DNA from: Streptomyces anulatus
GTDB lineage: Bacteria; Actinomycetota; Actinomycetes; Streptomycetales; Streptomycetaceae
NCBI RefSeq assembly: GCF_000721175.1
Contig: NZ_JOEZ01000008.1
Span: forward strand, 163,019 to 227,018
Direction: 5' to 3'
Length of the DNA: 64,000 nucleotides
Shown: piece by piece, positions 49,738 to 64,000 of the stretch
Position numbering within the stretch: position 1 is the first letter of the stretch
Layout: each line of letters starts with the position of its first letter
Notes under the pieces: generated by a model
Databases searched by the model: none
Told to the model about the DNA's origin: nothing
What the model saw: only the letters and a program-made list of their open reading frames with translations
Translations under genes and position numbers: made by a program

Positions 49738-51885
49738 CTACTCACTGGTGAGCGTGACGAAGCGCACGGGCTCGGTGAGGACCTTGTCAGCGCCCTCTTC
49801 GTCCGCGGTGCGGGCTGCGAGGGTTGCTTCGGCCAGTCGGGGTGGGAGAGTTTCACCGAACTTGAGGCCACGGACCGCCCTGCCGTCGATCTCGGGCAGG
49901 CACAAGCCCGTCCCGGTATCGGAGAGGGCGGTCCGCCAGCCTTCCCGAGTGAGGTCGTCGCGTAGCTTGATCCACTGATCGTTGACACGCCGACGCGGGG
50001 CCACGACGGAGGCCATCGAGGCGGCCAAGGTGGCGTTGGCGCGGTGGCCGGCCCAGGTCCACCAACGGATGTCGCCGTCGGTGTGCCGGATGACGACCGT
50101 CCCTCCGGGGTGGACGCTGTGCAGGTACGTTTCCCGCGCCTCGGCGAGCTGGGCCGTGGCCCTCTTGGTCAGGCGTACTGGCGGGTCCTCGCTGAGGAGG
50201 ATGTCCCGAGCGGCCCGGGCGAGAGTGAACGAGCGGATGCGCTCCGCGCCGAAACCGTTCCACCGAGCCCGCCCTCCCTCGTCGGCCGGTTCCACGAAGC
50301 AGCGCTTGCGGCTCCAGTCGATGTACGTCACCAGCCAGTTGCGGCCCGCGAGCAGTAGTCTGCGCGGGCCCTCGATCTCTTCGGTGAGCAGGTCGGGGTC
50401 GGTGCGGCCGATCTCTGTGCGGCCGTTGAGGACGGTGAACTCCGGCGGGGCGGTGAAAACCGCAGTCAGGTTCATGAAGTGGCGATGTCCGTAGCGGCGT
50501 TCGGCCTCCGGCCCGACGAACAGCAGTCCGCCGTCCTGGTCCAGATAGCCCTGGTCCACCAGGTGGCGTACTACGGGGGCCGCTCCCGGCCCGAAGGGCC
50601 CGATGCCGCCCCACCATTCCTGCCACAGGTTCTCGCCCACCCGGTGCTCCTGCAGGCACAGGGCCAGGAGCTGCTGGGCGACCAGGTGGCGTGGCTCGGG
50701 AGGAGCGACGACGGTTTCCACCCAGCCGCGGGACCACTGCAGAAGGAGCGCGGCCGCGGAGAGCAGACCGTCTGCGTCGAGCGCGAGGAAGAGGCAGTTG
50801 CGTGTGGTGCCGGGGCGGCGGCCGGTACGCCCGAGACGCTGGAGGAACGAGGCGACGGTCGACGGCGCGTCGAGCTGGATGACGCGGTCCAGGTCTCCGA
50901 CGTCGATGCCCAGTTCCAGCGTACTGGTGGAGACGATCACGCAGTCCCGGGCTTCGGCGAACGCGGTTTCGGCACGCCGCCGCTCGTCCACGGAGAGCGA
51001 GGCGTGGGACAGGAATGTCGTCACGCCCTTGAGCCGCAGCTGCTCGCCCAGCTCCTCGACGGTGCGGCGGCTCTCGCAGAAGACCAGCCGCTTCTCGCCT
51101 CGGTGCAGGGCCGCGATGACGGTGGCGGCGTTCGCGACGGATCCGACGTAGTCGACTTCGATGTCGCCGGGGGGCGGTACGAGGAGGGCCGCTCCGTCCG
51201 CCGGTTGTTCACGAAGGTGGGGCGCGACGACCCGGGCAGGACGGCGGCCGTGTCCGGAGCCCTGGAGCCACGCCAGCAGTTCGTCGGGGTTGCCGACCGT
51301 CGCGGACAGGCCGACCCGCTGGAGGGGGTGACCGACGACACGGCTGAGGCGCTCCAGTACGGCCAGCAGGTGCCAGCCCCGGTCGTCACCCGCGAAGGCG
51401 TGCACCTCGTCGACCACGACGGCGTTCAGCCCCGAGAAGAAGGCCTGGTGGTCGACATGCGTGCTGACCAGCATCGACTCCAGCGACTCGGGAGTGGTGA
51501 GGAGGATGTCCGGGCGCTGCGCGAGGATGCGGCGCCGTTTGCCGGTGGTGATGTCGCCGTGCCAGAGCGAGGCCGTGCGGCCCAGCCAGCCCGCGTACGT
51601 CTCCAGGCGGGGGTGGAGGTTGTTGAGCAGGGCCTTGAGCGGGCACACGTAGAGCACGCTGGTGCCCTTCCAGCCGCGCCGGTTCATACGGGTGAGCAGC
51701 GGAAAGGCTGCGGCTTCGGTCTTTCCGCCTGCGGTGGGTGCCAGCAGCACCGCGTCCTCGCCGTTGAGGAGCGGTTCGATGGCCTCTTCCTGCAGGGCAC
51801 GCAGGGAGCGCCAGCCGAGGGTGTTGACGATGTGGTGGCCGAGAACGGGGTCGAGGTGATCGAAAGGGTCGACCGGTTCCGTCAT
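49738..51885 (-). CDS. brxHI: BrxHI-like DEAD/DEAH helicase (BREX type 2)
   Basis: A 715-residue superfamily 2 helicase. Walker A is PTAGGKT at about 50-56, DEVH at 159-162 and SATVG at motif III. The helicase C half has VSTSTLELGIDVGDLD and QRLGRTGRRPG. It has the size and Lhr-like style of the helicase that ends BREX type 2 operons. Its ATG overlaps the brxD stop as ATGA. In BREX it supports host protection against phage without itself being a nuclease; the exact job is unclear. Confidence 0.88.
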   Translation of the reverse strand: MTEPVDPFDHLDPVLGHHIVNTLGWRSLRALQEEAIEPLLNGEDAVLLAPTAGGKTEAAAFPLLTRMNRRGWKGTSVLYVCPLKALLNNLHPRLETYAGWLGRTASLWHGDITTGKRRRILAQRPDILLTTPESLESMLVSTHVDHQAFFSGLNAVVVDEVHAFAGDDRGWHLLAVLERLSRVVGHPLQRVGLSATVGNPDELLAWLQGSGHGRRPARVVAPHLREQPADGAALLVPPPGDIEVDYVGSVANAATVIAALHRGEKRLVFCESRRTVEELGEQLRLKGVTTFLSHASLSVDERRRAETAFAEARDCVIVSTSTLELGIDVGDLDRVIQLDAPSTVASFLQRLGRTGRRPGTTRNCLFLALDADGLLSAAALLLQWSRGWVETVVAPPEPRHLVAQQLLALCLQEHRVGENLWQEWWGGIGPFGPGAAPVVRHLVDQGYLDQDGGLLFVGPEAERRYGHRHFMNLTAVFTAPPEFTVLNGRTEIGRTDPDLLTEEIEGPRRLLLAGRNWLVTYIDWSRKRCFVEPADEGGRARWNGFGAERIRSFTLARAARDILLSEDPPVRLTKRATAQLAEARETYLHSVHPGGTVVIRHTDGDIRWWTWAGHRANATLAASMASVVAPRRRVNDQWIKLRDDLTREGWRTALSDTGTGLCLPEIDGRAVRGLKFGETLPPRLAEATLAARTADEEGADKVLTEPVRFVTLTSE

Positions 51886-53213
51886 GGCAGATCCAGTTCG
51901 ATGTCTCCCGCGCCGGTGGCCGCGCTGCGTTCGGTCTCGTTCAGCTCGGAACTGCTCAGCGTGAGGGCGTAGTGGGCGCGTGGATCGAAGTCCGCGAACT
52001 CGTCGACCCTGTCCATCACGTCGGCGACGAGTTTGCGCAGGTACAGGCGAGGGGCGATACCGACCTTCCCGCCGAGCGACCCGGTGACCGCACGAGCCAG
52101 TTCCCTGAGGTAGGCGTCGTCGACACACGCGGCCAGCCGTTCGGGGTGACGAGCCGCCCCTGCGTAGACGTCGCGCACGTTGGCGCCCAGTTCGGCCAGC
52201 GAATCCAGGTCGAAGCCCGCCAGGCGCAGTTGGACGGCACGCGGGGAGTCGAAGCGGGGAGCGGTGGTGAAGTCCGTGGCGAGCCGCTGAGCGAGGGGCG
52301 CGAGGCGCTGGACGCCTTGCTGACCGTCGTAGAAGGCGGGGGTGCCGGTGATGATGAGGAACAGGCCGGGGAAGCGTCCGGCGTCGATCTCGTCGAGGAG
52401 CTGCCGGAGCGCGTTGAGGGATTTCTCGCGTACGTCGCCGCGCACCCGTTGCAGGGTCTCGACTTCGTCGAGTACGAGGAGGAGGCCGGGGTGTCCGCAG
52501 TCACGCAGGACGGTGAGAAGCCCCTGGAGAAAGGCGAGGGCGCCGAAGTGGTCGAGGTCGCCCCGGATACCCGCGGCGCGCTTCGCCGACGCGGCCACGG
52601 ACTTCTGGCCGCCGAGCCAGGCGATGAGTGCCTCGGCCCGGGCGCCGTCGCCCGCGGCGACGGCCTGGCGGTAGCCACGCAGCGCGGCAGAGAAGGCAGG
52701 CGTGGTGCGGGCGACATCGGCGAGGCGGCGCTCCAGAAGTTCGTCGACGGCCTCGGCCAGAGCGTCCTCGTCGTCCTCGGGGATGTCACCTTTGTCGAGG
52801 GCTTCTTCCTCCAGTGCGTAGAACCAGGAGTCGATCACCGGCCGGAGGGCGGAGGGCTGGTGGGTGGCGGTGGTGAGGCGTTCGGTGAGCCTGCGATAGA
52901 CGGTCTCCAGCCGGTGCAGCGGTGTCTCGGTCTCGGAGATCTGCACTTCGCTGACGGCGAGACCGTGCCGCTTGGCGCGTTCGGCGAGCCAACGGGCGAA
53001 GAAGGTCTTGCCCGAGCCGTACTCGCCGCGCAGGGCGTGGAAGGCGGAACCGCCGCGAGCGACGGTGGCCAGGTCGTCGTCGAGAGTGGCTTCGAAGCGG
53101 TTCAGGCCTACGGCGAACAGTCCGAGCCCGGACTGGGGCACCGTCCCGCGCCGCAGGGCGTCGATCACGTCGCGCCGGCGTGCCGTGCTGATCTCCGAGC
53201 CCCCGGTGGTCAT
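51882..53213 (-). CDS. brxD: BrxD-like ATP-binding protein (BREX type 2)
   Basis: A 443-residue P-loop protein. Walker A is GEYGSGKT at 63-70 and Walker B is LLLVLDEVETL at about 240. The opening TARRRDVIDALRRGTVPQ is typical of BrxD. Its ATG overlaps the pglZ stop, and its stop overlaps brxHI, so it is part of a continuous operon. Role in BREX unknown beyond being needed or accessory. Confidence 0.88.
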   Translation of the reverse strand: MTTGGSEISTARRRDVIDALRRGTVPQSGLGLFAVGLNRFEATLDDDLATVARGGSAFHALRGEYGSGKTFFARWLAERAKRHGLAVSEVQISETETPLHRLETVYRRLTERLTTATHQPSALRPVIDSWFYALEEEALDKGDIPEDDEDALAEAVDELLERRLADVARTTPAFSAALRGYRQAVAAGDGARAEALIAWLGGQKSVAASAKRAAGIRGDLDHFGALAFLQGLLTVLRDCGHPGLLLVLDEVETLQRVRGDVREKSLNALRQLLDEIDAGRFPGLFLIITGTPAFYDGQQGVQRLAPLAQRLATDFTTAPRFDSPRAVQLRLAGFDLDSLAELGANVRDVYAGAARHPERLAACVDDAYLRELARAVTGSLGGKVGIAPRLYLRKLVADVMDRVDEFADFDPRAHYALTLSSSELNETERSAATGAGDIELDLP

Positions 53214-55954
53214 GCGGCACCCCCGAGGAACTGCTGCTGGAGCAGGGACTTGTCGAGCTGGACGGTGCGCCCTGATTCGATGAGCTGGAGCACGGGATAG
53301 CCGTCGATGTTGAGAAGGCGTTCCAGGACGGTCGCGAAGCGCTCCGGGTTGCGCTGCGACTTCCCGGTGGCGGCCTGGGCTGCGGCGGCCACCGCGCCCG
53401 GGGACAGCTTTCCGCCCGCTGCGAGCAGGGCGTCGAGGACGGCGGCGACGGCCTTCTCGCTCGGGGCGAGGCGGACAAACTCCCGCTGTGCCTTGTACGG
53501 GGCGGACTGTACGGCTTGTTCGCCGGGGGTGCCCCGGCCGGGCAGCATGAAGATGCCTTCGCTCTGCTGGTCCTGCTCCGGCTTCTTCCTGCGCGGCTTG
53601 GCCACGGGCCCGCCGGTGGTGGCGGGAGCGGGCGCGGTCGCGTCGGCCCCGCCCCTGCCCTGCCACCAGTCCGGTGCGGTGCGTTCCGCGGGCAGCAGGG
53701 TCCAGCCCGGCGGGATCAGTTCGGCGGACGGCACGAGGGTGATCACGGGAACGGTGACCTCGGCGAGGGAGGCACCGCCGTGGTAGCCGGCCTGCCGGCC
53801 GGTGTAGCGCAGGTCCTCCCGCCAGGCAGCGGTGATCCGTCCGCTTCCCGCCAGGACGCGGGGTCCGGCCAGCGCGACCTCTCCGTGCCTGGGTGCGCCG
53901 GTGTGCCAGCGGGCGCCGCCCACTCCTTCGGCTTCGGTCTGCTGGTGGCCGCGCGGGGTGCGGTCCAGGACGTGGCCGTGGTCGGAGACGAGGACGACGG
54001 GTCGGCCGTAGTCACGGGCCGCGTTCATCAGGTCGGACAGCTTGGCGATGTCACCGATGCTCCACCGGCCGCGTGCTCCCTCGCGGCCGTCGGCCAGCGC
54101 GTCGTCGATGGTGTTGACGACGACGGCGACGATGTCGTCGGATGCGAGGGTGTCCAGCAGTTCGGGGGCCAGACGGTGACCGGGTGGTCCTTCGTAGCCG
54201 CCCTTGTGGAAGAGGTGCGCGCCCCGGTGGCGTTTGCGCCAGAAGGCGGCGAACCCGGCGCGTTCCACGCTCTGCCCGCCCTGGGCCGACTGCCCGCAGA
54301 GCAGTGACGCCCTGCTGATCGTGGTGAGGGAGGGCAGCATGGATACGGCGGCCCGGCGTGCGGGCTCCCTGCCGGGCCGGGGTTTGGGCACCACCTCGGT
54401 CCACACGCGCCGGTCCAGCTCGGCGGCGAGCTGGACGGCGACGTCGGCGCTCATGCCGTCGAGGACGAGGATCAGCGGCCTGCCCCCTTCGCGTGCGAGC
54501 GGCGCGGCGGCTTCGGCGAGGACGTCCTCGATGAGCAGGGCACCGCCCGGTGCCTGGGGGGAGGCGGTTTCCGTCCAGAGCGCGAGCTTGCGGGCGAAGT
54601 CCTCGTCGAGCCGCGTCCGACGCGCGCGGACCGCCCCTATCAGCTGGTGGTAGGCCTCGCCGACGGCGGTGTCCCGTGAGGTGTCGCCTTCGGAGAGGAC
54701 TCCGAGGGCCATGTCGGCCCAGCCGGATGAGGAGATGTGTTCCTGTACGGCCTGGGCGACCGAGTCGGCCGCCGGCTTCGGGGCGTTCAGCCACCGCACG
54801 AGGCGTACGGCGGTGCGGGCCGTCTCGGTGGATTCGGCGTTCAGCGCGGACAGTTGGTGTTCGGCCAGTTCGCGCAGGGCGGCTTCGGCGGGTGCGAGGG
54901 GGCCGTCGAGGGTGGCTGTGAGGGTGCGGAGCCGGCTGCGGTAGCCGGAGGGGAGCATCCGGTCGGCGCCGATCAGCGGGCTGAGCCGGGCGTCGGCGGC
55001 GAGCTGGTCGGCCCGGTCGAGTACGGCGAGGACACGTGCGCGGGTCTCGGTGCGCTGCTGGCCGCTGCCTTCTGCCTGGGCGACCCAGCGGGTGACGACA
55101 CCGGTGGCGGCGTCGGCGAAGGGCCGTAGCGCGTCGAAGGAGGCGAGGGCGGAGCCGAAGAGGGTGCCGAGTGCGAAGCCGGCGGCCTCCGCCGACTGTG
55201 CGGAGAGTGCGGCGGACGCGAGTGCGCCCAGGGGCAGCGCGTCGGCGCCCCGGTTGTCCGCGGCCAGGGCGAGCAGGGTGGGTGCGGCGGGGCCGACGGC
55301 CCGTGCCAGCCATTCGCTGAGGCCGGTCCGCTCGGCGGCGGGCAGTGCGGCGAAGAGGGCGGGGCCCGCCGGGGTCCGTGTCCAGGCGAAGAGGGTGTCC
55401 GCGTCGAGGTCGAGGGTGTCGGCGGTGGTGTCACCGAGTCCGAGCCGGGCGGCGAGCAGGGCCCGCACGGCGCGGTCGCGGGTGAGGACGGTCCCGCCGC
55501 GTGGCCAGCCGTCCACGGGTTCGGCTGCCAGCAGTGCGTCCAGGAGCCAGGTCTCCTTGAGCATGCGGGCGTCGAGGTCGGTGGCGCCGAAGAGCTGCTT
55601 GACGATGTCGGCGGGGTCGACGGCGAGGGGGCGCCGTCGCACGGCGTGGGCGCGCAGGTCCCAGCCGAGCTGGTCGGCGGGGACGGCGCCGGTGACGACG
55701 AGGACGCTGTCGCCGCCCGGGTCCTCCTGGGCCCGGTGGCGCTGCCAGGCGTCGGCGATGCCCAGCGGGGAGTGCTGCTCGGTGATGCGGACGCTGCGGT
55801 TCCGGCCGTTGATACGGACGGTGAACGCGGTGTCCTGGTCGCCTCCGTCGTAGGTCGCGTCGACCAGCACCAGCCGCGACCCGTCGGCGTGCGGGAGTTC
55901 GGTCTCCAGGAGTACTTCGATGGCGCGCCGGCCCGCGGCGGGGCGGGCCGCCAT
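53210..55954 (-). CDS. pglZ: PglZ, alkaline-phosphatase-fold BREX core protein
   Basis: A 914-residue protein with the PglZ domain. Residues in the active-site area are visible: LDGMSAD at about 498-504, TTISRAS at about 544-550 and VSDHGHV at about 656-662, the metal-binding Asp/His set of the phosphatase superfamily. The N-terminal half is helical. PglZ is one of the two proteins shared by all BREX types. ATG 55954 overlaps the pglY stop as TGATG. First shown in the phage growth limitation system of S. coelicolor. Confidence 0.93.
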   Translation of the reverse strand: MAARPAAGRRAIEVLLETELPHADGSRLVLVDATYDGGDQDTAFTVRINGRNRSVRITEQHSPLGIADAWQRHRAQEDPGGDSVLVVTGAVPADQLGWDLRAHAVRRRPLAVDPADIVKQLFGATDLDARMLKETWLLDALLAAEPVDGWPRGGTVLTRDRAVRALLAARLGLGDTTADTLDLDADTLFAWTRTPAGPALFAALPAAERTGLSEWLARAVGPAAPTLLALAADNRGADALPLGALASAALSAQSAEAAGFALGTLFGSALASFDALRPFADAATGVVTRWVAQAEGSGQQRTETRARVLAVLDRADQLAADARLSPLIGADRMLPSGYRSRLRTLTATLDGPLAPAEAALRELAEHQLSALNAESTETARTAVRLVRWLNAPKPAADSVAQAVQEHISSSGWADMALGVLSEGDTSRDTAVGEAYHQLIGAVRARRTRLDEDFARKLALWTETASPQAPGGALLIEDVLAEAAAPLAREGGRPLILVLDGMSADVAVQLAAELDRRVWTEVVPKPRPGREPARRAAVSMLPSLTTISRASLLCGQSAQGGQSVERAGFAAFWRKRHRGAHLFHKGGYEGPPGHRLAPELLDTLASDDIVAVVVNTIDDALADGREGARGRWSIGDIAKLSDLMNAARDYGRPVVLVSDHGHVLDRTPRGHQQTEAEGVGGARWHTGAPRHGEVALAGPRVLAGSGRITAAWREDLRYTGRQAGYHGGASLAEVTVPVITLVPSAELIPPGWTLLPAERTAPDWWQGRGGADATAPAPATTGGPVAKPRRKKPEQDQQSEGIFMLPGRGTPGEQAVQSAPYKAQREFVRLAPSEKAVAAVLDALLAAGGKLSPGAVAAAAQAATGKSQRNPERFATVLERLLNIDGYPVLQLIESGRTVQLDKSLLQQQFLGGAA

Positions 55955-58900
55955 CAGCCGGCCCCTTCCGTGCGGTCCTCGTCGTCCCGCACCGCACGCC
56001 AGATGACTTCCACCGGGGTGTGCGGGTGCGCGGCGCGGAAGCGTTCGATCTCCCCGCGTACGGCGTCGAGTTCGTCGCTGAGCCGCGATTCCAGGGGGGA
56101 GGTCCCGGAGGCGATGACCCGCCGGGCGGACTGCGGGCTGCCGTCCGCCGGCCCTCGTGCCGCCTGCGGTTCCTGCTCGGGCCGGCGTACGGGTTCGGAG
56201 GGCACCGGGGGGTTCCCGTGCCGCGACAGGGGGATCTGTTCCGGCCCCGGGGCGGGCGCCGGCGGCTGGACCGGCGGCTGAGGAGCCACCGCGTCCACGT
56301 TGAGGGCCGCCTCCACGATCGCCATCCCGGTCTCCCGGACCCCGCCGAGCACGGGCACCAGCGAGCGTTCGAACTCGGAGGCGCGGGCGGTCTCGGCGAC
56401 CTGTGCGAGCAGCCGGCGGGCCCGGTCGCCCAGGCTGTCGTCACGGTCGCCCAACAGCCTGACGTTCTTCAGCACCCGCCATACGGCGTCGTCGTCCAGG
56501 ATGCGGAGGACGTCGGCGGCTGTGCTCATGGTGGTGGCCAGGTCCCGGTCCGGGCTCTCGTAGGAGGCGCCGGCCAGTTCCCGTACGAGTGCGGTCGCGT
56601 CGCTGCCGTGGCGTCCGATTCGGGCGAGCAGTCCGGCGGCCTCGCGCAGCATCGCCGTGCGGGGTGCGGGGGTCCCGCCGTCGGGACCGTCGAGACCCAG
56701 CAGGGCCGCGTGCCGGTCCAGTGAGGCGCGTACGCCCACCACGCTCTTCTCGTACTCCGCGACCTTGTCCCGGACGTCCTCGGCGAGCTTGTTGATGTTC
56801 CGGGCGAACAGGGCGGGCTTGGCGCGGGCGCCGAAGAGGCGCCCGGCGCGGTCCCGGGCGCGCGCGTACTCCTCTTCGCTGGGCAGCGGCTGCGAGCGCA
56901 GCGCCCAGCCGGGACCGATCGCCGCGAGCTCGGGGGCGGCGGTCTCGGGTCCGGAGTGGTAGACCCAGGCGCGGTCGTCGAGCAGGGCGTACGCGGCGAT
57001 CAGGAGGTTGGTGGTCTGTTTGTCGAGGCCGGCGTAGCCGAGGTCCTTGGTGATCCAGCCGCGGATGTCCTCGGCGGCGAGGTCTCCGCGCTCCTGGTGC
57101 TGGGCGGCGGCCTGGTTGATCCGGGTGCGCCAGTCGGCGCGCAGCACGAGCGGGCCGTCGTGGACGGTGCCGAGCTCCAGGGGTTCCACGACGCGCTTGA
57201 CGGTCTTCAGCTGGTGGCTGTCGACCTCCACCCGGCCGCCCTCGTCCATGGCCCGGGTGATCCACTCCAGGGTGGTCCGCAGTTCGCCGGCGGTGACGGC
57301 CTTGCGCCGGCCGCCGGTGTCGGGCCCGAAGTCGGGGTGTTTCGGGTACAGGGCGCCGAACAGGTGGTCGGCGAGGAACAGCGCGTTGTCGGCGAACGGT
57401 TTGCCGCCCTCCGGCTGGACGCGTGGGAACTCCGGTTGCAGGGAGAGCACATGGCGGCCGTCGACCACCTCCGCCGCCCTGGTGCCGTCCTTGACCTCCG
57501 TGATGCCGTACACCTCGCCGAGCGAGGCGGTGAGCGTGCGGGTGAGGGTCTCGCGGCCGACCTCCAGCTGGCGGCGGGCCTTCGCCCGGTCGTCCGGCGG
57601 GTAGTTGCGCGTGTAGTCGGCGAGCCGGTCGCGTTCCAGCAGGAAGTTGATCCGCATCAGCCGGCCGAGCTGGGCCTTGCGCTGCTCGGAGAAGAAGTCG
57701 GTCAGCCAGACGAGGGTGGCCGCGGTGTGGCCGTTCCTGCTGAGCTCGGTCACGCGCTGGTAGTCGTCGGTGGGGAACTTCCCGGCGTCGTCGAACGGGT
57801 AGTCGATGACGAAACGGATGTTGCCCGGGGTGGCCGGCGTGAACTGCTCGTCCGACAGGTCGCGCGGGTCGCGTACGTTGCCGAACACGAACTCGGCGGT
57901 GCGCCGGGTGCCCCGCCAGATGATCTCCTTCTCCGGGACGAGCTGGCCTTCCTTCACGCCGAGCTCCTCCCACAGCCTGTCCCGCAGCCAGACGCGTCGC
58001 ACGCCCGCCTTGTCCTCCCCGGCGGCGGCGTCGAGCAGGGGCTCGACGTCCAGGTCGGACAGGTGGAGGGAGAAGACGGGGTCGGTGTCGCCCTCGGCGC
58101 GCAGCTCGGTGGGGTATTCGCCCTGGAGGGCCCGCATCCGGTCGATGACCTTCTGCCCGACGGGCACGGTCCGCGACCGTACGGAGCCGTGGTTGAGGGC
58201 CGCGAGCCGGGCCCCGGTGAGCCGGCGCAGCGCGGGCACGTCGGGGGCGAGCGCGGCCAGCAGCAGGGTCTTGACGAAGCGGTCGTCGGCGAGGAAGTCC
58301 GGGTGGTCCTCCCGGCCGTACTTCTCCAGCAGGTGGGCGCGGGCCTTGGCGTGGAAGCGCTGGGCGGCCTCGGACTCGTGTTTCAGCTTGTCGGTGAACG
58401 CGGCCCCGGTCCCGTCGATCAGGACGTCCCACAGGTCGCCGAGCGGGATCAGCTGCCCGAGTTCGGCACCGGCGTTCTTCTCCAGGAGCTGCTGGACGAG
58501 CTTGAGGCCGGTGCGTTCGCGCTGGAGCGCACCGGACAGCGCGACGAGCACGTTCAGCAGGGCGGGCGAGAGCGGGTAGACGGTACGGAAGTCGTCCCAT
58601 CCGGCCTGGGTGGCGCCGCCGTCGTCCAGCAGGACGTCCTTGACCAGCGGGCTGAACCGGTCGACACCCGCGAAGGCGGCGTCCAGCACTCCCTGCTGCC
58701 CGGGCCTGGGTTTGAGCACCCGCTCCTTGATGATCTCCGGGAGGTTGCGGTCCTCCAGGTCGACGACGGTGAAGCGCTCCTGCAGGTATTCCAGCGCGTG
58801 CTCCATGTTCTGCACGTCGGAGCCGAGGATGTCGGAGCCGACGAGCTGGGAGAGGTCACGCTGGCGGGAGATGAAGGAGATGATCGGCACCGGCCGGTCG

Positions 58901-59841
58901 GGGTTGCTGGACTCGATCAGCTTGACCAGTTTCTGGATCTCGTCGTTGACGAAGGTCCGCTGCTGCATGCGGGCCTGCAGCCACAGGATCAGCTCGTCCA
59001 GGAAGAGCACCACGCCGTCGTAGCCGAGCGACCGGGCGTGGACGCTGATGGCGCTGAGCCCGTCGTCCAGGGACAGATAGGCCGCCGCGTCTCCCCGGAT
59101 ACTGTCCGCGTACGCCTTCATGGGGCCGCTGACCAGGGCGGACACCAGCCGCTTACGCCGTTCGTCCCCGTCGGGTGCGGCGAAGGCGGCATCGAGCTCG
59201 GCGCCGGTCCACGGGGTGTCGGCGACGGCGCCGATCACGGCCAGCCCGTCCTCGTCCACCACGGGTTCGGGCGCCGCTCCGGCGGTGGGCAGCAGCCGTA
59301 CGAACGCCTCGTCCCCGAGGGAGGCCCGCAGGTTCCGGGCGTCGGACAGCAGGGAGTCCGCCTTGAAGACCAGGGGTGTGGGTGCGTCGGGATGCCGGTC
59401 GCGCACGGTCTTCGCGTACCCGCCGAGCAGCGCCGATTCCAGGTTGGCGGCGCCGACCAGGTGGTAGGGCACCATGAGGAACTTCTTGCCGCGCAGCCAC
59501 TCGTCGTGCTCGGCGACCACTTCGCGCAGCCGGGGCTTCTGCCGGGTGGCGGGCTCCCCGTTGAGCACGGCGTGCAGCACGGTGAGGAAGTGGCTCTTGC
59601 CCGCGCCGAACGAACCGTGCAGGTAGGCGGCGTGCGAGCTGTTCTTCTTCACGGCGCTGCGGATCAGCTTCAGCGCCGTCTCGAACTGCTCCCGCAGCTG
59701 CGGGGTGACGACGTACTCCTCGACCGAGCCGGCCGAGGAGCCGGTGAAGCCCTGCGACAGCTCGACCTTGAAGTCGCCGGCGTGGACGTCCTCCTTGATG
59801 TCGAGGACGTCCCTCAGCGCGATGTTGCTGCCCCTGGCCAT
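55954..59841 (-). CDS. pglY: PglY / BrxC-like large ATPase
   Basis: A 1295-residue ATPase. The N-terminus has IALRDVLDIKEDVHAGDF, then Walker A GSFGAGKSH at 76-84 and Walker B VVLFLDELILWLQ near 290. The rest is helical with long charged stretches, and the C-terminus has a Pro-rich linker near 1190-1230. The size and the start are those of PglY of BREX type 2. ATG 59841 leads straight into the family start. The 219 bases upstream should hold the promoter of the pglY-pglZ-brxD-brxHI block, since a HATPase gene and the regulatory pair separate it from pglX. Confidence 0.92.
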   Translation of the reverse strand: MARGSNIALRDVLDIKEDVHAGDFKVELSQGFTGSSAGSVEEYVVTPQLREQFETALKLIRSAVKKNSSHAAYLHGSFGAGKSHFLTVLHAVLNGEPATRQKPRLREVVAEHDEWLRGKKFLMVPYHLVGAANLESALLGGYAKTVRDRHPDAPTPLVFKADSLLSDARNLRASLGDEAFVRLLPTAGAAPEPVVDEDGLAVIGAVADTPWTGAELDAAFAAPDGDERRKRLVSALVSGPMKAYADSIRGDAAAYLSLDDGLSAISVHARSLGYDGVVLFLDELILWLQARMQQRTFVNDEIQKLVKLIESSNPDRPVPIISFISRQRDLSQLVGSDILGSDVQNMEHALEYLQERFTVVDLEDRNLPEIIKERVLKPRPGQQGVLDAAFAGVDRFSPLVKDVLLDDGGATQAGWDDFRTVYPLSPALLNVLVALSGALQRERTGLKLVQQLLEKNAGAELGQLIPLGDLWDVLIDGTGAAFTDKLKHESEAAQRFHAKARAHLLEKYGREDHPDFLADDRFVKTLLLAALAPDVPALRRLTGARLAALNHGSVRSRTVPVGQKVIDRMRALQGEYPTELRAEGDTDPVFSLHLSDLDVEPLLDAAAGEDKAGVRRVWLRDRLWEELGVKEGQLVPEKEIIWRGTRRTAEFVFGNVRDPRDLSDEQFTPATPGNIRFVIDYPFDDAGKFPTDDYQRVTELSRNGHTAATLVWLTDFFSEQRKAQLGRLMRINFLLERDRLADYTRNYPPDDRAKARRQLEVGRETLTRTLTASLGEVYGITEVKDGTRAAEVVDGRHVLSLQPEFPRVQPEGGKPFADNALFLADHLFGALYPKHPDFGPDTGGRRKAVTAGELRTTLEWITRAMDEGGRVEVDSHQLKTVKRVVEPLELGTVHDGPLVLRADWRTRINQAAAQHQERGDLAAEDIRGWITKDLGYAGLDKQTTNLLIAAYALLDDRAWVYHSGPETAAPELAAIGPGWALRSQPLPSEEEYARARDRAGRLFGARAKPALFARNINKLAEDVRDKVAEYEKSVVGVRASLDRHAALLGLDGPDGGTPAPRTAMLREAAGLLARIGRHGSDATALVRELAGASYESPDRDLATTMSTAADVLRILDDDAVWRVLKNVRLLGDRDDSLGDRARRLLAQVAETARASEFERSLVPVLGGVRETGMAIVEAALNVDAVAPQPPVQPPAPAPGPEQIPLSRHGNPPVPSEPVRRPEQEPQAARGPADGSPQSARRVIASGTSPLESRLSDELDAVRGEIERFRAAHPHTPVEVIWRAVRDDEDRTEGAG

Positions 59842-60060
59842 CAGCCGCTCCTGGCTCCCCGTACGTCCGGCCCCGGCCACCCCAGCCGGGTACTCGGCGG
59901 AGCCGACCGGTCACCCGTTCCGTACCGCCGCACAACCCCTCCATCCTGCCAGCTCTCGTCCGGGGACGAGGACGGGCTGAGGGGATTGCCGATGGGTGGG
60001 GTGGGGCACTTTCGGTATGCGGGCGACCAGAGCCACTGAGTACGGCACAAGCGTCCGGGG

Positions 60061-60504
60061 TCACCCGGGAGCGGTCTCCAGGACCGCCCACACGGTCTTG
60101 CCGGGCGCTCCCTCGCGCGCCACGACGCCCCACTCCTCGGCGAGCGCCGCGACCAGGACCAGCCCGCGTCCCGTCTCCGCGTCGGCGGGCAGGCCGGTGG
60201 GCGAGGTCGGCAGCCGCTCGCCCCGGGTGTCGCTGACCTCCACCCGCAGCCGCCCTCCTGCTTCCCGGATCAGCCGGAGCAGCACGTCCCGGCCCGGCAC
60301 CAGCCCGTGCGTGACCGCGTTGGCGGCCAGCTCGCCGACGACCAGGCTCACCGTGTCGTTCACCTCGGATTTGTAGCGGTGACCCCACTCGTGCACCCGG
60401 TGCGAGGCCAGTCGCCGGGCGAGGCGGGCTCCGCGCGGGGTGGCGGAGAAGCGGAGTTCGAAGGTGTCGCCGGGGTGCGGCGCGGTGAGGCCGGGGATCG
60501 TCAT
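60061..60504 (-). CDS. ATP-binding protein, RsbW-like HATPase_c (second copy)
   Basis: A 147-residue GHKL ATPase of the anti-sigma type. N box VVGELAANAVTHG and G box GRGLVLVAALAEEWG are intact, and EVSDTRGE is present. It resembles the one at 24608, including its setting beside an XRE/DUF397 pair. Here it sits between pglY and pglX, on the same strand as the BREX genes. Confidence 0.92.
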   Translation of the reverse strand: MTIPGLTAPHPGDTFELRFSATPRGARLARRLASHRVHEWGHRYKSEVNDTVSLVVGELAANAVTHGLVPGRDVLLRLIREAGGRLRVEVSDTRGERLPTSPTGLPADAETGRGLVLVAALAEEWGVVAREGAPGKTVWAVLETAPG

Positions 60505-60960
60505 GCGCCGAGGCTCTCGCGACGCGCACCCCCCTCACCAGGGGTAACGCCCGTACGGCCTGGTCCTGTCGGGGTCGGGGACGCGACTGGCGGGGCTGTA
60601 CGGGCGTGGCGTGCCGGGCGAGCAGCGCAGGGCGGTGGACCGGGACCGCCCTCGCCGGCCCGGTCCACGACGAGCCCGCCGCCCCTACGGCGAGGTCGTG
60701 GCGGACGCCGTCCGCTTTCTTCGGCTGGACCCCGGGCACGCCCGGCGCGAAGTCGGCCCTGGCGGGCGACCTGTACCGCCTGCGCGACCAGGGGCGCATC
60801 ACGGGTCGGCCGGACAGCCTGGTGGGCAAGGCGTCCTCGTAACTCCTGGGCGGCTGCCGTACGTCACTCACATGACGGACATTCATACGGATTCACTTCC
60901 TGCCGCCCCGCCCCGTCCTAACCTGCTGCCACTGCATGCCGACCGAGGGAGCGAGGGAGC
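60505..60960. other. Gap with a doubtful 78-codon frame
   Basis: The divergent control region of the second XRE/HATPase module. A plus-strand frame 60606-60842 ends with DLYRLRDQGRITGRPDSLVG, which looks somewhat protein-like, but it has no ribosome site and a poor first half. It could be the tail of a lost gene. XRE promoter elements are expected in 60860-60950. Confidence 0.4.
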
Positions 60961-61800
60961 ATGGACGTTGCGGTGGCCGGTGCCGTCGAGAATTCCGCAG
61001 ATCCGGGAGGCGGCTTCCTGCGCTGCTTCGGCCGTCAGGTCAAGCTGCTGCGCGAGGCCGCGGGGCTCACGCAGGCGGAGTTGGGGGCGAGCGTCGGGTA
61101 CGGCGAGGCGCACATCGCCTCCGTCGAACAGGGGCGGCGCATCCCCAAGCCCGAGATGGTGGAAGCGGTGGACCGGGTCGTGGGCGGGCGGGGTGTGCTC
61201 GTCGCGATGAAGGGGGAGGTGGAGCGGGCGCGGTATCCGTCGTTCTTCCGGCAGTACGCGCGGTTGGAGGCGGAGGCTACACAGCTGCACGCGTACGACA
61301 GCCACGTGGTCAAGGGTCTGTTGCAGACGGAGGAATACGCGCGAGCAGTCTTCGAGATGTGGCGCCCGCTTCTGGACGCCGACATCGTCGAGCAGCGTGT
61401 GTCAGCGCGCATGGAACGTCAGAAGCTCTTCTCCCGACGGCCTGCACCACTCCTGAGCTTCGTCATCGAGGAGACCGTCCTCCGCAGGCCCCTCGGCGGA
61501 CAAGCCGTCTTACGCGGCCAGTTGGAGCAGCTCCTCTTGTACGGGCACGAGCGGAACATTGAGATTCAGGTCATGCCGACCAGCCGTGAAGAACACGCCG
61601 GGCTGGCGGGGGCGTTCACGTTGCTCCACATCGGAGATCAGCGCAGGATGGCCTACATGGAGGTGCAGGACGAAAGCGCACTGCACTCGGAACCGAAGAA
61701 GGTCGGCGCCTTCGAATCGACCTACGGCGTACTCCGGGCCCAAGCACTCACGCCGAGGGAGTCGCTGGCCTTCATCGAGAGGCTGTTGGGAGAGCAATGA
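60961..61800 (+). CDS. XRE family regulator with DUF5753 (second copy)
   Basis: A 279-residue regulator. The helix-turn-helix region is LLREAAGLTQAELGASVGYG near 30-50. The DUF5753 half has LLQTEEYARAVFEM, IQVMPTSREEHAGLA and RESLAFIERLLGE. Its ATG is preceded by GAGGGAGC. It overlaps the DUF397 gene by four bases and is divergent from the HATPase, the same arrangement as at 23358-25042. Inserted on the opposite strand to the BREX genes. Confidence 0.93.
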   Translation: MDVAVAGAVENSADPGGGFLRCFGRQVKLLREAAGLTQAELGASVGYGEAHIASVEQGRRIPKPEMVEAVDRVVGGRGVLVAMKGEVERARYPSFFRQYARLEAEATQLHAYDSHVVKGLLQTEEYARAVFEMWRPLLDADIVEQRVSARMERQKLFSRRPAPLLSFVIEETVLRRPLGGQAVLRGQLEQLLLYGHERNIEIQVMPTSREEHAGLAGAFTLLHIGDQRRMAYMEVQDESALHSEPKKVGAFESTYGVLRAQALTPRESLAFIERLLGEQ

Positions 61801-62003
61801 GCACACAAGGACCCGCGTCGCGCACAAGCGAGCTGGCTTGGTTCAAGAGCAGCTACAGCGCCGGCAACGGCGGGGATTGCGTGGAGGTGGCGGCCGCAGA
61901 CACGTCCGTCCACATTCGCGACTCGAAGCAGTCCGGTGGACCGATCCTGAGCGTCGGGGCTGTCCAGTGGACGACGTTCGTACGGATGGCTGCGCGCGGC
62001 TGA
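61797..62003 (+). CDS. DUF397 domain protein (second copy)
   Basis: A 68-residue protein with the DUF397 pattern: LAWFKSSYSAGNGGDCVEVA, VHIRDSK and a C-terminal W-TFV segment. Coupled to the XRE gene by ATGA. A strong terminator at 62023 follows, before the convergent pglX. Confidence 0.93.
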   Translation: MSTQGPASRTSELAWFKSSYSAGNGGDCVEVAAADTSVHIRDSKQSGGPILSVGAVQWTTFVRMAARG

Positions 62004-62022
62004 CGTACGGAGGACCGCGCAT

Positions 62023-62063
62023 CGGATGCGGGTGGAGCCGGAATTTGGCTCCACCCGCATCCG
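62023..62063. terminator. Strong hairpin between DUF397 and pglX
   Basis: A 17-bp perfect stem (62023-62039 and 62047-62063) with loop GGAATTT. It lies between convergent genes and should stop pglX transcripts before they reach the embedded regulators. Confidence 0.85.
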
Positions 62064-62072
62064 TACGTACGC

Positions 62073-63902
62073 CTACTCGGCGGCCTTCTTGCGGCCGCCC
62101 CGCTTCTTCTCGGGGCGCCAGGCGCGCAGGTCGGACTCCGACAGGTGGCGCTCGGTGCGGCCGAGGTTGAGCGCGCTCTGGAACTCCTCGGCGGGGTTGC
62201 CGTCCCACTCATCGTCGAACTCGTCGTACCACTGGTGCACCCAGGGCATGGCCTCCTGGAGCCCGGCCAGGAGCGGGACGAAGCGGGCGTCGTCCTTTGG
62301 CCAGCCGTCCCTCTCCGCGCGATCGTGGACGAGGTTGGCCAGGACCTCGGCCTGCTCCCGGTGGTTCCAGCCGGCCCAGCCGAGGAGGAGCGACGAGTCG
62401 TTGTCGGTGGACGCGCCCGGGTAGGAGATGAACCGCTCCTTGGGCACATCGAGCTTGCCGCGGTTCGACCAGTAGGACTGCTTGACGAAGTCGGCACCCG
62501 TGTACTTCGGCGGGACCTTGATGTCGAGCCGCTTCCCGGTGCGGTCTTCTTCGCGCTGCTGCTCCCAGACGTGCTCCCACTGTTCGCGCTTGCGGAGACC
62601 GGTCTCCTTGTAGCGCAGGACACTGAGGTACGGGACGTGCTCGGGCTCGATGATCGCTGCGAGGACGGTCGCCAGGGAGGCGTCCCGCTTGCCGAGGTGG
62701 TCCTCTGCGTAGAGGGTCGCGACGGCCTGGACGTCCTCGTCGTGGCGGAGGGCGTCGGCGAGCTGGTTCACGGTGAGGGGGCGGGGCGCGGTGAACTCGT
62801 TGCGCTCCTCGAACCACAGGTCCTCGCGCTCAGCGGCATCCAGCAACCAGGCGCGCAGAGCTGCGGCCTCCCGCTTCTCCCACGGCTCAATGGACCAGCG
62901 GCGCTTGTACTCGGGGCGCTCGATGAGGCGGATGTCCTTGTTGGACTCGATGAGATCGAGGCGGGTCTGTACGACTTTCTTGTAGGACTCGGGCCACTCC
63001 TCAGGGATATCGCAGACCGGAGTGGACTCGTGCCGTCCGAACCAGACGGTCTCGGCTTCCTCATCACGTACCCTGCGAGCCAGCGCGATTTCGAAGGAGC
63101 GCTGGCCGAGTGCGAGTTGCGGTACGTCGCTGGCACTCAGCTCGGAAGGATCTCCGGAAAGAACGGTCCGCGTGACCTCCGACGGTGTGAGTAGGCCGTA
63201 TGCCCCGTATACGGTCCAGTCCAACTCTTCCTGAAGGGCGAACATGCGGGACCGGATCTTCTCCTGAGCTGCACGGGCTTCATCGAGCGCGCCGCGGGTG
63301 GGCGTAGCCGAGAGCGCGGAGGGCTCATAATCAGCGAGTTTTCGGGCAAGCCTGTCGAGTTCACGACCAAGGGTGAGCGGAAGCGTGACGGGGAGAGGGA
63401 ATTCCTGAAGCTTGGTTCCAGTGAACTCGAAAAAGCGCTCCCATTCGTCGTGCATGAATCCGCCGGTGCCTGACTGGCTTCCTTTGTCATGGCTCACCTG
63501 CTTCAACCAGAAGCAGGCCACCGAAGAGTTCAGCACCCCCAGCAACTCCAGGTGCCGCTCCTCGCTGGCCCCCTCCGGCAACTTGATCACCGGCGCGGAA
63601 CGGTTGAACACCTTCCCACCCCGATCCAGCACGAAGTGGTTATGTGTGGCCACAAAAGCGAACGCAATTCCAAGAGGGATCGTGTACCGCTCGGGGTGCC
63701 ATCGGCTCCACTCGTACCAAGTGAGACCGACTTCCTCATGTGTGCCGCCTGGTTCCCGCCGTTCCCGAAGTTCGGATCGCAACAACCATAGAAGATGGGC
63801 AACCACAGGTTCACTCAGATCCGCGGAAAGCTCACCATTGTAAGGGAAAAGCGCCTCAGTTTCGGGCGTCAAGTCCCAGTCGCGGATGACAGTGCCCTCG
63901 AC
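62073..63902 (-). pseudogene. pglX: PglX C-terminal part, truncated at its 5' end (BREX type 2 methyltransferase)
   Basis: The frame encodes about 609 residues matching the C-terminal region of PglX: EGTVIRDWDLTPE at the start, then WYEWSRWHPERYTIPLGIAF, LGVLNSSVACFW and a helical acidic end. Full PglX is about 1200 residues with a SAM-binding fold and an NPPY motif in the first half; both are missing. Upstream of 63902 the frame meets a TGA at 63927-63929. The only initiation codon near the break is a TTG at 63872 with no good ribosome site. PglX methylates host DNA as the BREX mark, so this fragment alone should be inactive as a methylase. Confidence 0.8.
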
Positions 63903-64000
63903 TAGTACTCCAGCCGTAGATCGTGATCATGTTGGCCCGCCGCCTGCTCGGTTGTAGTGGTTTGCTTGGGAGCGGTCCTGGTGGGAGTGGCTGTGCCGCT
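63902..64000 (-). mobile_element. End of a probable IS transposase gene (partial)
   Basis: A frame open from the right edge for 32 codons ends QHDHDLRLEY and a TAG at 63902-63904. It is out of frame with pglX and low in similarity to any BREX protein. Its Thr/Lys/Gln-rich final linker and its end exactly at the pglX break suggest the 3' end of a transposase. The CTAG at 63902-63905 fits the YTAR target duplication known for IS701-family elements, and the stop codon would then be made partly of that target. The family is an inference. Confidence 0.5.

Follow-up and report, generated by a model that had tools for sequence, protein, structure and literature searches.

A 64,000-nucleotide stretch of Streptomyces anulatus DNA (C8:163019-227018; here called the window) carries on its minus strand a gene set of the bacteriophage exclusion (BREX) type 2, or phage growth limitation (Pgl), system, consisting of brxHI, brxD, pglZ, pglY and the 3′ part of the methyltransferase gene pglX. 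We conclude with high confidence that an insertion sequence (IS) like those of the IS701 family has inserted into pglX at a CTAG inside the predicted target-recognition domain, and that the insertion disrupts the BREX type 2 locus.

Two parts of pglX and the element ends beside them

The pglX frame breaks exactly at window position 63902, 99 bases short of the contig end. Contig C8 stops at 227018, so the end of the window is also the end of the contig, and because of this the window alone was unable to show an insertion and a second contig, C2, was needed. The features at the right-hand end of the window are the following.

62073..63901, minus strand: pglX 3′ part (the rest of the predicted target-recognition domain and the C-terminal part); NF033451 positions 606-1183 of 1,185, 816 bits
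63902..63905, minus strand: CTAG target-site 4-mer, with a twin at C2:96-99
63906..64000, minus strand: terminal end of the IS701-like insertion element, at the contig end; recognised from repeat ends and from relatives with an IS701 transposase

The last 99 bases of the window (63902-64000), which are the CTAG and 95 bases of a multicopy element end, recur exactly at C4:1-99 and terminate in GATCACGATCTACGGCTGGAGTACTAG. The 27-base terminus was also found, with one variable base, opening C2 and closing C19 and, with one mismatch, at C11:109164-109190. Identity over 99 bases between contig ends is probably the result of short-read assembly breaking off at a multicopy repeat.

When the PglX model NF033451 was run against the whole genome, two strong matches were obtained, one on C8 (model positions 589-1183) and one on the minus strand at C2:88-1752 (model positions 64-596). 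Contig C2, which lies outside the window, opens with the opposite element end (C2:1-99, its CTAG included; also present where C19 ends), and the 5′ part of pglX follows directly on the minus strand (C2:100-1800). The initial annotation, made from the window, had pointed beyond position 64000 as the place to search for the pglX N terminus and for pglW, and both are on C2. The element end on C2 is oriented opposite to the one on C8, such that inverted ends of one element flank the two pglX halves, and a CTAG stands beside each half. The proposal in the initial annotation that an insertion splits pglX is borne out by this arrangement.

When the two CTAGs were collapsed to one and the element was omitted, a single pglX frame of 1,203 codons resulted. 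As a control, the left flanks (C2 and C19) were joined to the right flanks (C8 and C4) in all four pairings and read in three forward frames, and only the C2-C8 pairing was long on both sides (594 + 609 codons). The 64-kb window has three CTAGs in all, and apart from the break neither half of pglX contains one. Moreover, matches to both pglX halves lay on one strand of one record in all six relatives compared, which were drawn from 45 fetched loci, with pglW matched in five of the six and pglY also in five. The homologous site in the five relatives that were aligned was not CTAG.

The position of the break at a contig end raises the alternative that pglX is intact in the cell and that the contig was broken nearby for another reason, and five other sampled genomes have a pglX that is cut at a contig edge or has N in the break, with no real lesion shown. 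Such an assembly artefact is very unlikely here. Both contigs enter element ends by 99 bases, CTAG is present on both, and the frame closes exactly at one CTAG. Furthermore, a culture rich in intact alleles would be expected to give contigs that end in pglX rather than in the element. The initial annotation had itself raised an assembly error at 63902, along with a complete pglX elsewhere in the genome, as grounds for doubt. The sequence beyond 63902 proved to be an element end that is present elsewhere in the assembly, and no second PglX was found when all contigs were searched with NF033451 at E ≤ 1e-5. The remaining NF033451 matches were rejected as candidates for a second complete PglX: those to methylase sequence on C26, C4, C18 and C27 are weaker and partial, and C2:6495-6605 is a short 5′ remnant. 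We conclude that the two halves of pglX are in all likelihood parted by an element.

Of 392 genomes of the genus, 127, this one among them, have the 27-base element end when at most two mismatches are allowed, and a backward control pattern gave none in the table of matches. Ten complete or near-complete elements were fetched from other genomes, and an IS701-family transposase (NF033540, 412-436 bits) was detected in all three of the complete elements that were scanned. YTAR targets and a 4-base duplication are typical of the IS701 family. Among the matches listed for other genomes, the flanking 4-mers were identical in 15 of 25 element pairs and read YTAR at 46 of 50 ends, the latter count being biased towards YTAR, as the flank pattern held CTAG with up to two mismatches and non-CTAG-like flanks were under-counted. 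Of the elements compared, the one that best matched the C2 element end was L155 (88% over 94 bases). The pglX copy resembles IS701-family insertion sequences of Streptomyces in its 27-base inverted ends, in its YTAR-like 4-base flanks and in having three complete relatives with IS701 transposases; it differs in being recognised from its ends alone. Matches to the IS701 transposase model in this genome were limited to C21, C3 and a remnant on C11. The C11 remnant belongs to a partial related IS701-like copy (C11:108388-109190) that matches L155 at 89% over ~800 bases.

Position of the cut and a second lesion in pglX

The N-terminal part of PglX has an NPPY motif at residue 365 of 594, and its frame enters the element and stops within a few codons (open reading frame C2:82-1878). 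The C-terminal part (62073-63872) is the last 599 codons of the gene, with TTG at 63872 as the first start codon in frame. The methylase domain of Salmonella PglX spans residues 227-661, with NPPY at 509-512, and the recognition domain spans residues 662-849 (PMC11341690). Counted from NPPY, and assuming equal spacing in this distant relative, the cut would lie ~75 residues into the recognition domain. When a profile of a PglX alignment (alignment A2, 14 rows) was compared with the PDB, four chains were matched, the best of which, 7lni, aligned across the stretch that holds the cut: profile positions 558-756 aligned to 7lni residues 314-508, and the cut motif PLVEG lies at about profile position 622. 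We take 7lni to be CamA and the aligned stretch to be the CamA recognition domain. The same profile aligned to Salmonella PglX (8c45) only over 224-317, and single-sequence searches of the PDB with PglX gave no match. By both estimates, the cut is apparently within the target-recognition domain, not at a domain boundary.

A second lesion was found at the 5′ end of pglX. About 60 or more N-terminal residues (~61 in L072), which are present in all 12 relatives of alignment A2, are absent here, in frame, and the missing stretch begins ~20 codons past the probable GTG start at C2:1800. A genome search with the N terminus of a relative recovered the flanks and did not convincingly recover the missing ~61-codon stretch, for which the sole match, on C64, had an E value of 0.14 and 40% identity. 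C2:6504-6763 is a second, similarly truncated pglX 5′ end that matches at 86% over 261 bases, 100 of which form an exact repeat; the ~60-codon stretch is absent from both copies. In addition, C2:6325-6504 recurs at C2:7881-8060 (98%). The 4.6-kb stretch between the two pglX 5′ copies holds a divergent operon that encodes TPR, cytidylyltransferase-like, LigT-like, HD and S-adenosylmethionine (SAM)-methyltransferase proteins, the LigT-like match being just below its cut-off. C2:1645-8060 resembles an old tandem duplication in which deletions followed. With the exact repeat exceeding the 99-base contig overlap by a single base, the 5′ repeat structure on C2 may instead be an assembly artefact. 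Close to where the TPR frame of this operon begins, C2 carries at ~2244-2252 a C9 run as read on the minus strand (G9 on the plus), and slippage could occur there.

Several points weigh against a single IS701-like insertion as the cause of the broken gene. The C2-C8 junction is reconstructed from contig ends. The interior of the pglX element was not found in the assembly, in which L155 (1,950 bases) matched only element ends, the partial C11 copy and weak scraps (best 40 of 236 candidates), and for this reason the IS701 membership of the pglX copy rests on its ends. The element would be ~2 kb long if like its relatives, and its transposase and its make-up as one simple insertion sequence are likewise presumed. 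The flanking 4-mers were unequal in 10 of the 25 element pairs listed for other genomes. Finally, the 5′ deletion in pglX means that the insertion was maybe not the first inactivating event.

Constraint on pglX and its occurrence in Streptomyces

The ratio of nonsynonymous to synonymous substitution rates (dN/dS) was determined pairwise. It was 0.19-0.24 for the C-terminal part of pglX and 0.22-0.35 for the N-terminal part, each against five relatives, compared with 0.15-0.21 for pglW against five relatives, 0.20-0.43 for pglY against four, and 0.31 for pglZ against the single relative that reached it. Thus, pglX is not clearly less constrained than its neighbour genes, and there is no stop in either half. 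Because both halves are stop-free and not clearly less constrained than their neighbours, the insertion is probably recent; the pairwise dN/dS values cannot date it. The initial annotation had seen particular interest in a BREX block retained without PglX, an idea that gives way to what looks like a recent knockout of a gene whose halves both keep open frames and low dN/dS. A BREX-like system that works without PglX was rejected on similar grounds: this genome also holds the other half of pglX, and constraint is still apparent on both.

Open frames and low dN/dS in both halves are also compatible with a split enzyme in which both halves are made and cooperate as methylase and specificity subunits, like HsdM and HsdS. 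In keeping with that idea, the N-terminal part retains NPPY, and the N-terminal part of Salmonella PglX can be purified alone (PMC11341690). The cut, however, apparently falls within the target-recognition domain instead of between domains, the C-terminal part must use TTG if it starts at its first in-frame start, and the C-terminal domain of Salmonella PglX is described in the same source as not expressible alone. We consider a split enzyme exceedingly improbable and favor a gene knocked out by insertion.

The survey of the genus covered the same 392 genomes. PglZ (E ≤ 1e-40) was detected in 88 and PglX (E ≤ 1e-60) in 103, and by hand count 87 genomes had both. In 81 of the 87, pglX extended in one frame over at least ~1,110 of 1,185 positions; these near-full-length genes were counted from match tables and not gene by gene, and a locus shared with pglZ was not a criterion. 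The remaining six were this genome, three genomes in which pglX is cut at a contig end (G008, G261 and G276) and two with N in the break (G106 and G279), and only this genome of the six shows an insertion. Recurrent breakage of pglX in Streptomyces was rejected on these counts, and a TGA flagged in the pglX of G280 was its normal stop.

The apparent pglX frameshifts in G106 (L058) and G279 (L055) have N in the break and show how a pglX can be wrongly called broken. In G057, PglZ was matched in part and PglX was not matched at the E thresholds used. Nine genomes (G029, G043, G132, G177, G195, G204, G245, G266 and G295) have only a late part of PglX (E ≤ 1e-60) and no PglZ match (E ≤ 1e-40). These late parts may be orphan C-terminal domains or remnants, and weaker matches to the earlier part fall outside E ≤ 1e-60. 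Two full-length pglX genes are present in some genomes, e.g., G079, G150 and G298, and in these three the two genes start within ~12 kb of each other.

In S. coelicolor, where an inactivated pglX is already known, Pgl turns off through pglX, and the switch operates through a G tract in the gene that has 7 G instead of the original 8 in suppressed strains (PMC4365076). A tract of 7 to 8 G of that type was sought here and none was found: neither half of pglX has a G or C run of seven or more, the longest being G6. The insertion itself could then be an on/off device for Pgl that replaces G-tract slippage, with precise excision restoring pglX, and the target 4-mer is indeed clean on both sides, as precise excision needs. 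A switch of this kind is nevertheless highly improbable: pglX is near full length in 81 of the 87 Streptomyces genomes that have PglZ and PglX, with an insertion in only one of the other six, the 5′ deletion would survive excision, and precise excision of such elements is without support in this analysis. Quite unlikely, too, is the broader proposal that a mobile element takes the place of a slippery G tract as the reversible off-switch of a Streptomyces BREX type 2 system, and that the 5′ deletion, the tandem remnant and the insertion are signs of a pglX that is switched or lost again and again as pglZ and the other genes stay. We conclude that the finding is an ordinary transposon knockout of a defence gene in a standard BREX type 2 locus and not a new defence system.

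Composition of the locus and predicted loss of Pgl activity

The other features of the locus within the window are the following.

49738..51888, minus strand: brxHI, BREX type 2 superfamily 2 (SF2) helicase, 716 amino acids; PADLOC PDLC02503 BrxHI, 1065 bits; Pfam DEAD and Helicase_C
51882..53213, minus strand: brxD, BREX ATPase, 443 amino acids; NCBIfam NF033438, 673 bits; Pfam BrxC_BrxD
53210..55954, minus strand: pglZ, BREX type 2 PglZ, 914 amino acids; NCBIfam NF033446, 780 bits, model positions 7-889 of 890
55954..59838, minus strand: pglY (BrxC-type) ATPase, 1294 amino acids; PADLOC PDLC02488 BrxC-PglY, 1335 bits; NF047891, 966 bits, with nearly the whole model covered yet below its 1,700-bit cut-off
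60061..60504, minus strand: gene for a HATPase_c_2 protein, between pglX and pglY; Pfam PF13581
60961..61800, plus strand: gene for an XRE/DUF5753 regulator, between pglX and pglY; Pfam PF19054 and HTH_31

Profile matches confirmed the five BREX genes or gene parts that the initial annotation had recognised in the window (PglY-like, PglZ, BrxD-like, BrxHI-like and the C-terminal half of PglX), each where it had placed them. As it had also described, pglY, pglZ, brxD and brxHI overlap or abut, end to start. In a direct scan with Pfam PF08665, the window PglZ scored 32.3 bits. The genes for the XRE/DUF5753 regulator and the HATPase protein may belong to the BREX locus. On C2, pglW is a single open frame at C2:10264-14793 (1509 amino acids), and its C-terminal piece (548 amino acids), when scanned, matched NF033442 with 367 bits. 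The PglW alignment spanned ~1,450 residues in four of five relatives and 1,011 in the fifth, in which the locus is cut. The proposed gene order would be pglW, accessory genes, pglX, the regulator genes, pglY, pglZ, brxD and brxHI.

PglZ in its type 2 form, the BrxC/PglY ATPase, the PglW kinase, BrxD and BrxHI are present, and an intact PglX methyltransferase is not, as its halves on C8 and C2 are split by element ends and ~61 N-terminal codons are absent. We conclude that the locus is BREX type 2, as the initial annotation had assigned it, with pglW and the pglX 5′ part now located. The whole set of type 2 genes named in PMC12839542 (pglW, X, Y and Z, brxD and brxHI) is present, with pglX broken, and is shared with S. 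coelicolor Pgl. Unlike in S. coelicolor, pglX here is interrupted by an IS701-like element, ~61 codons close to the 5′ end are missing, and the 4.6-kb divergent-operon stretch lies between the truncated pglX 5′ copy and the main gene.

The PglX of S. coelicolor is a DNA methyltransferase whose toxicity shows when PglZ is absent, and resistance requires the PglW kinase and the PglY ATPase (PMC4365076). The N-terminal product predicted here would retain the methylase motif, end a few codons into the element and be without full target recognition, and the C-terminal part would be made poorly or not at all. To judge from the sequence, DNA marking is likely lost, in which case host DNA would be unmarked and the system off (Pgl-minus). 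The remaining genes would presumably be harmless without PglX and could therefore persist, among them pglZ, whose product is the antitoxin to PglX in S. coelicolor. The strain would thus offer a natural pglX-minus, pglZ-plus allele, and the toxin/antitoxin model of Pgl (PMC4365076) predicts that pglZ is freely deletable in such a strain.

Disruptions of pglX have been reported across BREX loci; here the disruption is by a transposon, in a type 2 locus. In a literature search of partial coverage, no title named a pglX insertion of this kind, and no paper on IS701 with CTAG in Streptomyces was found. The locus also advises caution in counting defence systems in fragmented genomes, in which a contig end can hide a transposon in a key gene and the locus can be miscalled as complete or incomplete.

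A Pfam PglZ search of the whole genome did not list the window PglZ and gave a single weak match, at C3:92681-92890, whose 23.1 bits fall short of the Pfam cut-off; the PglZ assignment relies on NF033446. DNA matching the regulator/HATPase stretch of the window (60061-61800) was found between pglX and pglY in several relatives.

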